This document shows positions 32,133-38,825 of a stretch of 64,000 nucleotides of DNA, one piece after another (within the stretch, counting starts at the first letter, position 1; each line of letters begins with the position of its first letter). Source of the DNA: Candidatus Zixiibacteriota bacterium. GTDB taxonomy: Bacteria; Zixibacteria; MSB-5A5; WJJR01; JAJRUJ01. The DNA lies in the NCBI GenBank assembly GCA_024277855.1, contig JAJRUJ010000101.1:1-64000 (forward strand), read 5' to 3'. The notes below the pieces were generated by a model. It made no database searches, was not told where the DNA came from, and saw nothing but the letters and a program-made list of their open reading frames with translations. The position numbers were made by a program, and so were the translations under genes.

Positions 32133-33323
32133 CTATCTCCCCTGCGGGAACCAATGAGATGTGCGGAGGCAAATTCGCACAAGCATGAGCATCACCGGCA
32201 CTTCGATTAAAACGCCGACAACAGTCGCCAGGGCCGCACCGGAGGAGATACCGAACAAAATCGTTGCCGTGGCGATGGCAACTTCAAAGTGGTTGGACGC
32301 ACCGATCATCGCCGACGGAGCGGCGTCGGCATATTCGAGTTTTAGCCAGCGCGCTGCCAGATAGGTGATCCCGAAAATGAACGTCGTCTGGATAAACAAT
32401 GGGATGGCGATCCAGAGAATAGTCAGCGGATTGGAAAGGATGACCTCACCTTTGAAAGAAAACAATAAAACAAGGGTCAACAACAATGCACTGATCGTAA
32501 CCGACGTAAGGATGTGCAGGAATTTATCTTTAAACCAGGCCGCCCCTTTCACGCCGACAATAGCTTTACGGGAGAGGTAGCCGGCAAACAAAGGCAAGGC
32601 GACATAAATTGAAATCGAAAGAAGCAAGGCCTCCCACGGCACCGGCAACCGGCCGACCCCCAGGAGAAAACCGCCCAGCGGGCCATAGAGAAACAGCATT
32701 GCCAACGAATTGATCGCTACCATGACCAGCGTAAGGCCGTCGTTTCCGCGCGCGAGATACCCCCAGACCAACACCATCGCGGTACACGGTGCAATACCCA
32801 GCAGGATACACCCGGCGAGGTATGATCGCCAGAGCGGCACTTCGAGCATGCGGATACCATCTATGGAGACAACGGTGCCGACACCGTGAACGGCGCCGAC
32901 CGGGAGATCGAGGCCGAGCGGGAGCCGGACCAGGTCAACCGCCTCCGGCCCGATGAAGGTGCGGAAAAGTGTCCCGAGGAAGAAAATCGAGATGGCATAC
33001 ATCGTAAAGGGCTTGATCAGCCAGTTGACCACTAAAGTCAATCCGACCGGTTTGACATTCTTACCGGCGCGAAGGACCTCGCCGAAATCGATCTTGACCA
33101 TAATCGGGTACATCATAAAAAACAGACAGATCGCGATGGGGATCGAGACAACCGGCGCGCCGCCGACATCGAGCGTGAGCGAATCGAGATATCTGGCGAT
33201 ACCGGGTGCGAATTTACCCAACGCGATTCCGGCGCCGATGCAGAGCAGCACCCAGACAGTGAGATAGCGTTCGAACGATCCAAGTCCGCGCGCTTCTTTA
33301 GTAATACAGGCCCTGGTTGCCAT
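32133..33323 (-). CDS. arsB: Acr3-family arsenite efflux transporter
   Basis: A 396-residue membrane protein with ten hydrophobic helices, belonging to the bile/arsenite/riboflavin transporter superfamily. It carries the Acr3 signature helix [19 protein letters not shown] with the essential cysteine, and [11 protein letters not shown] in the late helix. It exports As(III) across the inner membrane. It is often labelled arsB although unrelated to the E. coli ArsB fold; acr3 is the more exact name. Its ATG overlaps the arsC stop. Last gene of the island. Confidence 0.93.
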
Positions 33324-33775
33324 CAGGTGTTTTCCTCATTGGTTAACGATTCGGGAAGGGTTTCGACAAATGCCTTGATCTCGTCGCGTACGCGGCGGTA
33401 GTGGCCGAGAGCTTCCTCTTCGGATGCGGCATCTTTGGCCAGTTTCGGCGGATCGTCAAAACCAACGTGGACGACCTTCGTCTTGCCGGGAAAAACCGGG
33501 CAATGTTCATTGGCCTGGCCGCAGACGGTCACGACATAATCAAATTCGACCGCAGATAACTCATCGACGTGCTTGGAGCGGCGCGCACTGATATCCACAC
33601 CGACCTCGTTCATCACGCGGATGGCGCTCTGGTTCATACCGTGTATTTCGATCCCGGCGGAGTAAGGTTCGATCAGCCCGCCTTTGAGTTGACGCGTCCA
33701 GCCCTCGGCCATTTGGCTGCGGCAGGAATTACCGGTACAAAGGAAAAGAACGCGGAGCGTTTTCACGGTTTTCAT
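33323..33775 (-). CDS. arsC: Arsenate reductase (thioredoxin-coupled, low-MW phosphatase fold)
   Basis: A 150-residue ArsC of the thioredoxin-coupled class with active-site loop [14 protein letters not shown] (P-loop CX5R) and further cysteines ([16 protein letters not shown]) for the disulfide cascade. It reduces As(V) to As(III) for export by Acr3, and thioredoxins encoded in the same operon are plausible reductants. Length is normal. It overlaps acr3 by one base. Confidence 0.94.
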
Positions 33776-33808: not shown

Positions 33809-34291
33809 CTAAGCAAATCTGAGCAGTTTTTTAATCTCGGAAAGGGAGAGCAACCGCCCCTTGGCTTTGATTTCTCCGTTGATCATCAGCACCGGCGACG
33901 GCAACACCCCATATTCGGCAATCTGGGCCAGACTATTGATATGCTGCACGTCTGCGGTGATGCCTTCTTTGGCCACGACAGCGATCACGCGCCGTCTCAG
34001 TTCATTGGCATTCAGTCAATCACCGCCATAAATCCGGATTTCGGGCACTTGTGGATCGTCAACAACCTGTTCTCCGCAAAATCGGCGGAATTCCATAAAC
34101 ATCGCCCGGCGGTATTCGGCCTCAACACCCGAGGGAATGTAGTTTTGCGCTTTGACCCGGGCAAAAATTTCGTCGGCCAGGGCATCGTCGCCGGATAACT
34201 CCAGGGCCTGCACTTCACGGAATGTGTCCTCGAGTCCGGTGATGCCGACTTTGTGTGCGCCGATACGCACCTGTGTAACCAGATAGCCCAT
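33809..34291 (-). CDS. Thioredoxin-like protein with in-frame UGA at the active site (candidate selenoprotein)
   Basis: Reading through TGA at 34016-34018 gives a 160-residue protein. Residues 1-88 form an N-terminal domain I know only from thioredoxin-like relatives of anaerobes (VTQVRIGAHKVGITGLEDTF). Residues 88-160 are a small thioredoxin-like domain: IRIYGGD-U-LNANELRRRV, then VLPSPVLMINGEIKAKGR with the cis-Pro region. The UGA sits exactly where the first Cys of CPxC falls in relatives and in the neighbouring gene (GTGCPKC); the second Cys is Ala. 68 codons stay open after the UGA. Either selenocysteine insertion or decay explains it; I favour Sec modestly. Confidence 0.6.
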
Positions 34292-34299
34292 GATCTCCC

Positions 34300-34533
34300 T
34301 TAGCCGATCAGTTTTTTGATTTCATCAAGGTCGGGAACTTTGCCGACAACTTTGACTGTGCCGTCAACCATCAGCGCCGGAGTCATGATTACCCCCGCAG
34401 CGGTGATCCGGTTGATTTCGGTAACTTTCTCGATTTCGTAATCGCCGCCGAGCGATGCGGCGGCTTCCCTGGTCAACTCGGCCAGTTTGTCGCACTTGGG
34501 GCAGCCGGTACCAAGAATTTGGATTTGTTTCAT
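34300..34533 (-). CDS. Small thioredoxin family protein (CPKC)
   Basis: A 77-residue glutaredoxin/thioredoxin-like protein of the MTH895 type, with ILGTGCPKCDKLAELTREAAASLG and the cis-Pro motif IMTPALMVDG. It begins at MKQIQIL, with AAAGGGG upstream; the longer frame upstream has no homology. Such proteins are common partners of DUF318 permeases in arsenic clusters and probably act as a thiol carrier or reductant. Confidence 0.88.
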   Translation of the reverse strand: MKQIQILGTGCPKCDKLAELTREAAASLGGDYEIEKVTEINRITAAGVIMTPALMVDGTVKVVGKVPDLDEIKKLIG

Positions 34534-34547
34534 GATTTTTCGCCCCT

Positions 34548-35342
34548 TTAAACGAGCAGTTGGAAAACTATGCGAACGGCTACCAGCCAGACAATCAGAC
34601 CGAACATCCGTTTTAGACGCACCTTGTTCATCGAGATAGAAATCTTGCTGCCTAAAAGTCCGCCCGCGACAGCCGCCACAGCTAAAACAAGACCGACGCG
34701 CCAATCAATCTGGCCATGTACCGCGTGTCCGGCAAGACCCGACAGAGCAGTCACGGCCACCATGACCGTAGATGTGGCGACAGCAATATCCATCGGTACT
34801 CCGCACAAAAGCACCATGATCGGTAACTTGATAATTCCCCCGGTGATCCCCAGCATACCGGACAGGATGCCGATGAGAGCCGTGGCACTCAGCACCAACG
34901 GCAGGTTTACAGCATAATTGACGCCGTTAAAGCTGCGCTGCCACCACCACCACCCTCTGCCGCGGATTTCAATTGCGGGCCGGTGTGAGTTGTTTCTCAG
35001 CATAAGTGTACCGGCAATTACAAGTATCCCAACCAGAAAACTCCTCAGTATTGCTTCCGGAATAAGTGTGCTGAAATAACCTCCGACAAAGGCCATCACG
35101 TCAGTCGGGGGATCGATGACCAGGGCCAGTTTCCAGTCAACTTTGCGGTTGCGCCAGAAAGTAAACAGCGCGGCCACAGAGGTCGCCGCGATCAATATCA
35201 GACTGATGGCCGGAGCCTGCTTAAATGAAAACCCCGCAAAAAGAAGAACCGGGACATACAGAATTCCCCCACCCATCCCGATCATCGAGAAGACCGTCGA
35301 GATTACAAAGAAAACCAGGGCGAGGAGCAGGATTTGGCCCAT
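34548..35342 (-). CDS. TauE/SafE family membrane transporter
   Basis: A 264-residue protein with about eight helices in two inverted halves. The first starts ALVFFVISTVFSMIGMGGGILYVPVLLF; the second has LIGILSGMLGITGGIIKLPIMVLL with the conserved glycine-rich GxxGxxGGxxxxP motif in both. Characterised relatives export sulfite or sulfoacetate or import other small sulfur anions. In this operon it may move a sulfur or arsenic-thiol species. Confidence 0.87.
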   Translation of the reverse strand: MGQILLLALVFFVISTVFSMIGMGGGILYVPVLLFAGFSFKQAPAISLILIAATSVAALFTFWRNRKVDWKLALVIDPPTDVMAFVGGYFSTLIPEAILRSFLVGILVIAGTLMLRNNSHRPAIEIRGRGWWWWQRSFNGVNYAVNLPLVLSATALIGILSGMLGITGGIIKLPIMVLLCGVPMDIAVATSTVMVAVTALSGLAGHAVHGQIDWRVGLVLAVAAVAGGLLGSKISISMNKVRLKRMFGLIVWLVAVRIVFQLLV

Positions 35343-35348
35343 AAAGAA

Positions 35349-35963
35349 TTAATCGCCTTTCTCGGCTTTGCCCTTGCACGCGAGACAAATGCGACCGGCG
35401 CTCGTGTCGAGCAATTTGTCTATGAAAACCATCTCTTTACATTGCGAACAAGACTCAGCATCGAAAACACCTGCTTTGCGAGTATATTCGCGAGGTGTAA
35501 TCGTACCGATATCCAGAAACATCTCTTCCGGCATGGACATGATATTTTCGACCAGTGGACCGGTGATTTCCGGGGCGATATCCTGGGGCGGGATGCCTTG
35601 CTTACGCTGTTCAACAAAGGGTGACTTCAACATCCGGGCGAAAAATTCCGGTTTAAGCGATACCCGCACCGATCTTTGACCCTGGACATCAATAAGCGTG
35701 AAAGCCATCTTGTTGTAGTAGCGTTTTTCGATATTCGATTTGCCGTAAGTACAACCGGTCGCCACCATGATGCCGTCGAGAAAACACCCAGCCGCATGCC
35801 CTTTGCCTGTTTCGGAAATAACCTGCAGTTCCTTGTCTCTGGCCCGTTCGACCTCCAGAATATTCATCGCCGCTACGGCCGCCCGCAAACCAAGCGGCAT
35901 GGCTGGACACTTATGCCCATGAAAAGCCAAACCGACTTCCATGAAGTTTTTTGGATCCAACAT
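35349..35963 (-). CDS. FmdE-like protein with C-terminal zinc ribbon
   Basis: A 204-residue protein. Residues about 8-145 show the FmdE domain ([22 protein letters not shown] with the HGHxCP motif, then [18 protein letters not shown]), followed by a zinc ribbon (CSQCKEMVF...ICLACKG). FmdE proteins occur with formylmethanofuran dehydrogenase in methanogens, but in other organisms they occur alone and bind Fe or Zn. The start ATG is preceded by AAAGGAGG. Its role in an arsenic operon is unclear; metal or thiol chemistry is plausible. Confidence 0.85.
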
Positions 35964-35991
35964 ATTTCTGCCTCCTTTCATCTCGAAGAAA

Positions 35992-37290
35992 TTAAAAAAA
36001 CGTTCCAAAAACCATGCCGCTGATTGTGGCCATGATGATCACCAGACCCACAAACACGACTGTTTTTTGGGAGCCGATTACACTGCGGATAACCAGCATA
36101 TTCGGCAGCGACAATGCCGGCCCGGCCAGCAGCAAGGCCAAAGCCGGGCCTTGCCCCATCCCGTTGCCAATCAGCCCTTGCAGGATCGGCACTTCGGTAA
36201 GCGTGGCAAAATACATGAACGCACCGGCCACCGAGGCAAACAAATTCGCCCAGAGTGAATTACCGCCAACCATGTTGGCCACCCATTCTGCCGGGACCAA
36301 CCCCTCATGCCCGGGGCGACCCAGCAGTGCGCCGGCAATCAATACACCATAAAATAACAACGGGAGGATTTGTTTGGTGAAACCCCAGGTTGATTCGAAC
36401 CACTCGCGTGTCTCTCCCCTGCCGGTTGACGTAATGACCGACAACCCCAAAACCCCGGCAGTGAAGGCGAGCAACGGCTGATCCGGCAGCCAGAAAGCCA
36501 GCACGACGACCGGGAGGCCGGCCAGGATCAGGCGCAGGCGGCTGACCGTGAACCAGCGATAGAGAATCAGGCTTAATATCGCGGCGCCAATCCCGGTCAG
36601 CGGCCACTTGATCTGGTAGATGGACTGCCAGAAACCAACCGGCTCGGCCGGTCGGGCCCAGGTGGCGAAAACCAGAATGGCGATCATGGTCGCAAAGTAA
36701 ACGGCGGTTTGCCAGAGCGGGCGCGCGGCCTCCGGTTCGGGCATCGCCGCCTGTGCTTCCGCCTTGGCCTGCTCGTCGCGGCGAAAAACCAGGTGCATAA
36801 TCAAGCCGATGACGATACTGAAAACGACCGCCCCCACCGCGCGGGCGATCCCCAGGGGCAGACCGAGAATACGCGCAGTGAGGATGATCGCCAAAATATT
36901 GATCGCCGGTCCGGAATAAAGAAAGGCGACGGCCGGCCCCAACCCCGCGCCCATACGATAGATCCCGGCAAACAGCGGCAGGACGGTACATGAACAAACC
37001 GCCAGTACCGAACCGGAAACCGAGGCGACACTGTAGGCGACAACTTTCCGGGACTGTGCGCCAAGATATTTAATCACCGAGGCGGAACGGACAAAAACCG
37101 CGATCGCCCCCGCGATAAAAAAGGCCGGGATCAGGCAGAGCAGAACATGTTCGCGCGCATACCAGCGAGCCAGCGCCAGGGCCTCGGTAACGGCATTGTT
37201 GAACCGAACCTGGCCAACCGGGAGATAATAGACGGCAAGGAATACGCCGACGATGACCAGCAGCGGTTTGTATTCTTTTTCCCAGTTCAT
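35992..37290 (-). CDS. Permease of the DUF318/ArsP (YraQ) family
   Basis: A 432-residue membrane protein with two groups of helices. The conserved [45 protein letters not shown] contains the Cys-Ser-Cys pair of this family, and the second half has [40 protein letters not shown]. Relatives export trivalent organoarsenicals (ArsP) or act in unknown thiol-linked transport. It directly follows arsR. Confidence 0.9.
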
Positions 37291-37316: not shown

Positions 37317-37637
37317 TCACTCGGCCAGTTTGAGTTGCTCTTCAGCGGTGAGTTTGATCACCGATTCGACACAATCGAAGAAATTCAGGACACAGGGTAT
37401 TTGCAGCCGGTAATACACCTGTGAACCACGTCGCTCCGACCGGATGATACCGACTTCTTTAAGCAGGCCGAGATGACGCGAAACAGTGGACATATCTGCG
37501 CCGATCGCTTTGGTCAATTCCTGTACGTTGGCCTCACCGCGTGAGAGGGTATCGACAATGAACAACCGCGTAGGGTGGCCCATGGCCTTGATGATTTTCG
37601 CCCGCGCCGCAAATCGTGCTTGTACATTTGGTTCCAT
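37317..37637 (-). CDS. arsR: ArsR family transcriptional repressor
   Basis: A 106-residue winged-helix regulator (AMGHPTRLFIVDTLSRGEANVQELTKAIGADMSTVSRHLGLLKEVGIIRSERRGSQVYYRLQ). It has two cysteines near the C-terminus, IPCVLNFFDCVE, suited to bind As(III) across the dimer. It lies inside the operon, after two membrane-redox genes. The likely operator is the palindrome at 38873-38898 before the first gene of the island. Confidence 0.92.
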   Translation of the reverse strand: MEPNVQARFAARAKIIKAMGHPTRLFIVDTLSRGEANVQELTKAIGADMSTVSRHLGLLKEVGIIRSERRGSQVYYRLQIPCVLNFFDCVESVIKLTAEEQLKLAE

Positions 37638-37650
37638 ATTGACTCACCGG

Positions 37651-38343
37651 TTAAGAGATTACCCCAAAGATAAAACGTAAAGTGTAATAGATGCCGACGC
37701 CGATAAAAACCAAGCCGGTTACCCATCGCGCCCAGCGTTCAATCTGAGTAATTCGATCGAAGGCTTTGCCCACCGAACGGGCGCCGAGGGCGATAAAGAG
37801 CGCAAAGATGAAAACAGGCAACGCGGTCCCGATCCCGTACAAAGTGGGCAGGTAGACTTCCGATTGGTAACTGACCGCCAACGGAATCAAGCTGCCGAAA
37901 AATAGGGCCGCCGAAATTGGGCAGAATGTCAGGGCGAAGACAAACCCCAATAACCCCGCGCCCCAAGTCCCGCCGCGATCGACCCGGGCCTGCATCTTCT
38001 CGCTGATTCCCGAGCCGGAACCGCCGAATTTCAACAACTCGAGCATAAACATCCCGGCCACCAGCAAAATCGGCCCCAGCAGCTTGTTCATGTATTTCTG
38101 CAACAGATGCGACAGGTAGGGCGCTTCCAGCAAGCTGGAGACCAACAGGACACCGAGTACCAGGTAGGTCAGGCTGCGACCGACGGTATAGAGCAACCCG
38201 GCGGAAAGAACCTGTTGTGGTTTCCCCACGCGGCGGCCGATATAGGAGATCGCGGCGATGTTGGTTGCCAACGGACAGGGACTGATCGAGGTGAGGATCC
38301 CCAGCCACAATGCCGAGGCCGCGCCAAAAAAGAGATCGTCCAT
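37651..38343 (-). CDS. CcdA/DsbD-like membrane protein of the ArsG family
   Basis: A 230-residue protein with about six helices. The paired motifs LTSISPCPLATNIAAISYI and FALTFCPISAALFFGSLIPL each carry one conserved cysteine, as in CcdA-type thiol-electron carriers across the membrane. This subgroup is annotated as ArsG (aromatic arsenical efflux), though the paired Cys also suits electron transfer to the periplasm. Its ATG overlaps the stop of the gene before it (TGATG). Confidence 0.88.
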   Translation of the reverse strand: MDDLFFGAASALWLGILTSISPCPLATNIAAISYIGRRVGKPQQVLSAGLLYTVGRSLTYLVLGVLLVSSLLEAPYLSHLLQKYMNKLLGPILLVAGMFMLELLKFGGSGSGISEKMQARVDRGGTWGAGLLGFVFALTFCPISAALFFGSLIPLAVSYQSEVYLPTLYGIGTALPVFIFALFIALGARSVGKAFDRITQIERWARWVTGLVFIGVGIYYTLRFIFGVIS

Positions 38344-38825
38344 CAACCCTCGCCCTGTAGATAATCGCGGGTTTCATCCCGGACGTAAGTTATAAACGCC
38401 GCTTTATCCCCGGCCAGTTTCCAGACCCGCTTAAGATTTTTCCATTCGGTCTGTTTTTCATTGTACATGTTGACAAGAACCAATGAACTGGAAGTAAGTT
38501 TGTAGTCTTTGACGAAATGCTCATTGGCCGGCTCCTCAACATTGACCGCCTGCCAAGTGATTTCACCGGAGGTCAGAAACTCAGCAAAATTGGAATCGAA
38601 CACCTCTTTGGTGTACTTTTCAATTTTCAGGCAGGTCTTGCAGCGGGCGGTCCAATGGAAATAGTATGCTTTCACCTGATGGTCGGGAAGTTCAATCTCC
38701 TCTGCGGCGATCGGCGTTATCGATTCTTCGTTTGTCGATCTACCAGTCTTACCAACCAGCAGGTAACCGAGACTCCCGGCAACGAAGATCAATAAGACAA
38801 CCGTCAGAATTTTTTTCGCGTTCAC
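38343..38825 (-). CDS. Membrane-anchored thioredoxin-like protein
   Basis: A 160-residue protein with an N-terminal membrane anchor (residues about 5-25), then a thioredoxin-like domain with the motif ARCKTCLKIEKYT (CKTC). It is the first gene of the ars island and overlaps the ArsG-like gene. With that CcdA-like partner it could form a periplasmic thiol-reduction pair, like DsbD/CcdA with its thioredoxin. AAGGAGAAG precedes the GTG/ATG region start at 38825. Confidence 0.85.
   Translation of the reverse strand: MNAKKILTVVLLIFVAGSLGYLLVGKTGRSTNEESITPIAAEEIELPDHQVKAYYFHWTARCKTCLKIEKYTKEVFDSNFAEFLTSGEITWQAVNVEEPANEHFVKDYKLTSSSLVLVNMYNEKQTEWKNLKRVWKLAGDKAAFITYVRDETRDYLQGEG

Follow-up and report, generated by a model that had tools for sequence, protein, structure and literature searches.

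A candidate selenocysteine form of an ArsE-like thioredoxin protein encoded in an arsenic island of Candidatus Zixiibacteriota

What does an in-frame UGA signify when it interrupts a thioredoxin-like gene in an arsenic island? The gene in question lies in a stretch of 64,000 nucleotides from Candidatus Zixiibacteriota (contig JAJRUJ010000101.1 of assembly GCA_024277855.1, positions 1 to 64,000), referred to here as the window, and an initial annotation of this DNA, which gave no strand, had proposed it as a candidate selenoprotein gene. The frame is on the minus strand. It comprises 160 codons (33809..34291), beginning with an ATG at 34291 and closing with a TAG stop that ends at 33809, and its sole interruption is a TGA at 34018-34016, codon 92, which is preceded by 91 codons and followed by 68 open ones. 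The putative ribosome-binding site, AGGGAG (34295..34300, minus strand), is located 3 nt upstream of the ATG and overlaps the end of the neighboring gene, which encodes an ArsE-like protein with the motif CPKC. With the TGA read as selenocysteine (Sec), the predicted protein is MGYLVTQ...EIRIYGGD-U-LNANELRRR...LLRFA. Such a locus is a gene-finding hazard, since ordinary annotation would end the protein at residue 91 and lose the active domain.

The part of the frame beyond the TGA is readily recognizable. Residues 84-157 (33821..34042, minus strand) match the Pfam family Thioredoxin_3 (PF13192) with 54.6 bits and an E value of 1e-14 (gathering cut-off, 24.8 bits), and the match runs across the UGA, so that the 68 open codons, which the initial annotation had read as thioredoxin-like, supply the rest of this domain. 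The closest subfamily is MTH895/ArsE (TIGR00412), although its cut-off of 62 bits is narrowly missed by the window protein (60.5 bits) and by its counterpart from a second genome, G001 (58.1 bits), when Cys is substituted for Sec; the Cys-containing relative P0003 scores 84.6 bits. The SaoT (NF040730) and UXX-star (NF041114, NF041211) models gave no match to P0001, and the cut-offs of the UXX-star, SaoT, and DF models were not reached, the only hit being to NF049942 at an E value of 0.01 and 15.8 of 70 bits. An AlphaFold2 model built from 8 sequences (mean pLDDT 85.5, pTM 0.52) contains two domains predicted with confidence, although how they are placed relative to each other is uncertain. In this model residue 92 directly precedes a helix spanning residues 93-109, as in the canonical thioredoxin active site, and the best match among solved structures is MtH895 (1ilo; TM score 0.75 by target).

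The N-terminal domain (residues 1-79; 34055..34291, minus strand) is predicted to form a beta hairpin and three helices, with a pLDDT of 88.6 when modeled alone, and Pfam and PDB fold searches returned neither a family name nor a fold match for it. The same domain also occurs joined to a 4Fe-4S ferredoxin domain in several further genomes of the phylum (L078-L087, for example, L081:1118-1636), in several cases beside ArsE-like genes. On the strength of these fusions, the N-terminal domain looks like a docking module common to redox proteins of the arsenic-island setting.

Alignment with relatives that share the two-domain layout places the UGA precisely. Residue 92 is Cys in all seven full-length Cys relatives and corresponds to the first Cys of their CxxC motif. 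This first Cys never varies, the second is present in every Cys relative, and replacement of the second by Ala or Val (U-x-x-A/V) occurs only in the two UGA-containing genes, being Ala in the window protein. The two features that had been read from the window sequence, a TGA at the first active-site Cys and an Ala in place of the second (U-L-N-A), are confirmed by alignment with the wider family. Within the phylum, the CxxC relatives are those of G041 (GPGCPRC) and G047 (GPGCFRC), the latter partial at a contig end. A search of 386 genomes around a Coatesbacteria locus yielded six more (L101-L106), with the motifs CPNC, CARC, CALC, CPRC, CPNC, and CPPC. An alignment-based search recovered G001 and G041 again together with two one-domain loci, and a plasmid search returned one-domain relatives only; an IMG/VR protein search and a single-protein search of genome_contigs returned nothing. 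G280 (L107) was tried as a further case of TGA read as Sec and rejected: it is a two-domain relative with an intact CPRC motif and a frameshift in its N-terminal part, between the domains, and is a decayed or misassembled copy. The other stop-containing matches (G081, G089, G123, and others) cover the thioredoxin domain only. Separately, a CSMAG_2382 contig filed under Candidatus Zixiibacteriota shares gene order and near-identical proteins with a Coatesbacteria chromosome (L049/L050), and one of these two labels may be wrong.

When stops were read through in a search of 98, and then of all 133, genomes of the phylum, the same gene layout with a TGA was found in a single other genome, G001 (Candidatus Zixiibacteriota DeMMO3_3, L047), which belongs to another genus within the same family. 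The UGA form is known from two genomes only, of which G001 is certainly, and the window genome probably, metagenome assembled. In G001 the TGA stands at the same codon and in the same context (YGGD-U-LN), in a protein with 56% identity to that of the window, and there is no other stop and no frameshift in either gene. Beyond the TGA, the differences between the two genes are mostly silent (dN 0.27, dS 1.30; dN/dS about 0.2; Fisher P = 2e-7), so this part is not a dead tail, and, as judged by this comparison, the frame past the UGA is under purifying selection. The two proteins share 66% identity in the thioredoxin domain and 48% in the N-terminal domain. Their thioredoxin domains are 38 to 43% identical to that of G041, and the Cys forms are 41 to 61% identical among themselves across lineages. 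That the UGA pair stands further from the Cys forms than these do from each other suggests an active site that has been changed and constrained rather than one that has decayed.

For the UGA to be read as Sec, the genome should encode the corresponding machinery, and it does. The assembly (3.07 Mb in 129 contigs) contains a tRNA-Sec with the anticodon UCA, contig C49 carries selA and selB as immediate neighbors, and selD lies on contig C127 (L090, G000:C127:2527-3444), so that all four of the genes whose presence had been proposed as a check are accounted for. The catalytic residue of selD is itself encoded by an in-frame TGA (GG-U-AGK), and a hairpin with the loop GGU lies 17 nt beyond it. 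TGA serves as an ordinary stop for 11 of 27 open reading frames, which speaks against any general recoding of UGA, and a scan for other UGA-containing genes in the window yielded no second convincing case. Both UGA-bearing genomes have a tRNA-Sec(UCA); in the Cys-bearing members of the phylum, G041 and G047, whose assemblies are both incomplete, only a tRNA-Leu was found instead. Because 118 of the 133 phylum genomes have selA, its presence alongside the Sec form carries no information.

The initial annotation had seen only a weak UGCC/GGCG hairpin downstream of the UGA and judged that no SECIS element was evident. A search of this region revealed a better candidate that had been missed, at 33977..33996 on the minus strand. 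This hairpin, GACGGCG[CGUGAU]CGCUGUC, has a stem of 7 bp and a loop (33984-33989) that starts 26 nt after the UGA. Under the published bacterial SECIS model, the apical loop lies 16 to 37 nt after the UGA and is 3 to 9 nt long, the stem has 4 to 16 bp, and a G occurs within the first two loop positions (PMC13188914). The window hairpin satisfies this model, with G-U at loop positions 2-3. The G001 gene has a hairpin at the same place, ACGGCGGCG-CGUGAU-CGCCGCUGU, with a 9-bp stem and with loop and spacing identical to those in the window. When the 7-bp stem is compared across the two genes, one substitution is compensatory (A-U to G-C), two are one-sided, and all pairs are kept. Taken by itself, the hairpin is evidence of modest weight, since a conforming hairpin of equal or greater stability follows 29 of the 2,075 TGAs in the window (1.4%), but its position and loop recur in G001. 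Its stability in the window gene is ordinary (fold z score, -0.79), and conservation of silent sites within it is not significant (P = 0.26 to 0.34).

Taken together, these observations favor recoding over two other readings of the UGA. Were the gene degenerate, as the initial annotation had allowed, the UGA would be a genuine nonsense mutation, and whatever follows it would be dead. The restriction of the TGA to one lineage of the phylum would fit such decay, as would loss of the second active-site Cys, but a decaying gene would not be expected to retain its TGA at one codon in two genera whose proteins are 56% identical, with no further stop or frameshift, to evolve at a dN/dS of about 0.2 past that TGA, to be more alike between the pair in its thioredoxin domain than in its N-terminal domain, or to come with the complete Sec machinery and a hairpin that fits the SECIS model. 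We regard this explanation as very improbable, and the frame conserved in G001 contradicts in particular the idea of decay in the window lineage only. The UGA might instead simply terminate translation, as TGA does elsewhere in the genome, to give a 91-residue product with the thioredoxin part made separately, or it might be read through with a standard amino acid. If the thioredoxin part were made on its own, however, it would be missing the first strand of the fold and the position of the active site, and plain read-through leaves unexplained why TGA, and not TAA or TAG, stands precisely at the catalytic Cys and is kept with a SECIS-type hairpin. The likelihood of either variant is negligible. 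The Sec machinery, the conservation of the UGA in G001, and the model-fitting hairpin all support the original proposal, and the gene almost certainly encodes a selenoprotein.

The surroundings of the gene indicate the process in which such a protein would act. As the initial annotation had recognized, it lies in an arsenic island, in which all the genes described here are on the minus strand, in the order ArsF, ArsG, ArsR, ArsP_1, FmdE-like, TauE-like, CPKC ArsE-like, the candidate selenoprotein, ArsC, and ACR3. Directly upstream is the gene for the CPKC ArsE-like thioredoxin-like protein (34300..34533), which scores above the TIGR00412 cut-off, and directly downstream, after a gap of 33 nt, is that for a thioredoxin-coupled (pI258-like) arsenate reductase, ArsC (33323..33775; 150.5 bits, below the equivalog cut-off of 174.3), followed by the arsenite efflux transporter ACR3 (32133..33323). 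Further upstream lie genes for a TauE/SafE permease (34548..35342), an FmdE-family protein (35349..36008), an ArsP_1-family permease (35992..37290), an ArsR/SmtB-family regulator (37317..37637), an ArsG-family permease (37651..38346; NF040495, above cut-off), and an ArsF-family thioredoxin-like protein (38343..38825; NF040494, above cut-off). G001 and 4484_95 have nearly the same island gene set, rearranged, and in the window, G001, and 4484_95 alike an ordinary ArsE-like gene directly precedes the two-domain gene. Five of the six relatives outside the phylum (L101-L106) likewise lie among ArsR, ACR3, ArsP_1-like, ArsF, or ArsG genes. Judged by these neighborhoods, the two-domain protein generally belongs to arsenic islands, with the Sec form as a derived version, and a role for the predicted selenoprotein in the arsenic island, taken broadly, is highly probable. 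In G001, the gene right after the UGA-containing gene encodes a DUF1573/OS_HP2-family protein with an in-frame TGA of its own (AKAG-U-GCT; L047:6577-7713 = L018:265-1401, minus strand). This is a known selenoprotein family, and the G001 protein scores 97.5 bits against a cut-off of 100; the hairpin scan found no hairpin within 16 to 37 nt after the TGA. The arsenic island of G001 probably holds two selenoproteins.

What the protein does in the island can be proposed more tentatively. SelB with Sec-tRNA would read UGA-92 as Sec, directed by the downstream hairpin, and Sec92 would then be the only active-site chalcogen of a two-domain ArsE-like protein. With the second Cys lost, such a protein could not carry out classical disulfide reduction alone: a lone selenol cannot close an internal selenenyl-sulfide, and turnover therefore needs an outside thiol. 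We suggest, as a reading that may well be correct though it is far from assured, that the protein is a one-selenol redox partner in the arsenic pathway. Sec92 would act as a nucleophile on an oxidized or arsenic-bound sulfur partner, for which the candidates include the ArsC disulfide and an arsenic-thiol or organoarsenical adduct. At the end of its cycle an ArsC of the pI258 type is left with a disulfide, which has to be opened by thioredoxin, and such an ArsC would be a natural client of the Sec protein. The resulting selenenyl-sulfide would be opened by an outside thiol, most simply that of the CPKC ArsE-like protein encoded upstream, which its gene neighborhood makes a natural candidate for the partner. 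The N-terminal domain would probably serve as the docking part that chooses the partner.

Two other functions deserve consideration. As a rule, trivalent arsenic calls for two or three soft ligands, and the alignment showed no further conserved Cys close to Sec92 that sets the UGA pair apart; both points weigh against a chaperone role, in which Sec92 and partner thiols would bind As(III) or an organoarsenical and deliver it to the ACR3, ArsG, or ArsP_1 permease. We consider this role unlikely, even though the island encodes three efflux-type permeases, classical redox cycling was removed along with the resolving Cys, and metal binding by Sec has been proposed for SaoB, SaoC, and UXX-star proteins (PMC13188914). 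A part in an ArsE/ArsF-type reductase for nitroaromatic or other organic arsenicals would accord with the ArsF and ArsG families of the same island and with the detoxification of roxarsone and nitarsone that is attributed to ArsEFG by Chen, Zhang and Rosen (2019), in the account given by PMC9144182. An ordinary Cys-containing ArsE-like protein is already encoded next door, however, and such a part seems distinctly doubtful. Returning to the one-selenol redox partner, its boldest form would be that in this Zixibacteria family an ArsE-type protein swapped its catalytic Cys for Sec and afterward lost the resolving Cys, to become a dedicated single-selenol protein that works through selenium-arsenic or selenenyl-sulfide intermediates with its Cys paralogue, and so opened a new selenium-dependent route of arsenic detoxification. 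This is conceivable, but we would not expect it to hold in full.

The chemistry of selenium is known to interact with that of arsenic, and to our knowledge few resistance proteins need selenocysteine. A conserved redox protein of arsenic islands that appears in both a Cys form (CxxC) and a predicted Sec form (UxxA/V) offers a clean, testable case, in which arsenic detoxification may draw on selenium chemistry through the Sec form.

How does this protein compare with known systems? The redox-active disulfide 2 family (PF13192) already has selenoproteins, Sec.1 and Sec.2 of Brachyspira (Santesmasses et al. 2017, PMC5330540), and is listed with selenoproteins in a table of PMC7435645. By their descriptions, none of the 119 families of a 2026 inventory combines PF13192 with U at the first position of CxxC and no second Cys. 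In a comparison that covered this inventory and the NCBIfam models, we found no earlier description of the Sec-at-CxxC ArsE-like form. The Brachyspira proteins resemble the window protein in the family of their thioredoxin domain, a UGA-encoded Sec, a Cys paralogue in the cluster, and a bacterial SECIS (PMC5330540). Their Sec, however, sits away from the CxxC motif, in a short extension at the N terminus (alignment column 26, the domain starting at column 53), with no arsenic island reported, whereas in the window protein Sec would replace the first Cys of CxxC itself and the N-terminal part makes up a complete additional domain. MTH895/ArsE proteins (TIGR00412; 1ilo) share the fold and sequence of the C-terminal domain and the setting in arsenic islands; the UGA proteins differ from them in having U-x-x-A/V in place of C-x-x-C, an added N-terminal domain, and scores 2 to 4 bits under the cut-off. 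The Cys two-domain relatives (G041, G047, and L101-L106) have the same layout and lie mostly in arsenic islands, but with C-x-x-C and no UGA. SaoT and UXX-star proteins are, similarly, small selenoproteins of thioredoxin fold or glutaredoxin-like type with Sec first in the motif, several of them linked to metals or metalloids (PMC13188914); SaoT retains UxxC, whereas the protein described here has U-x-x-A.
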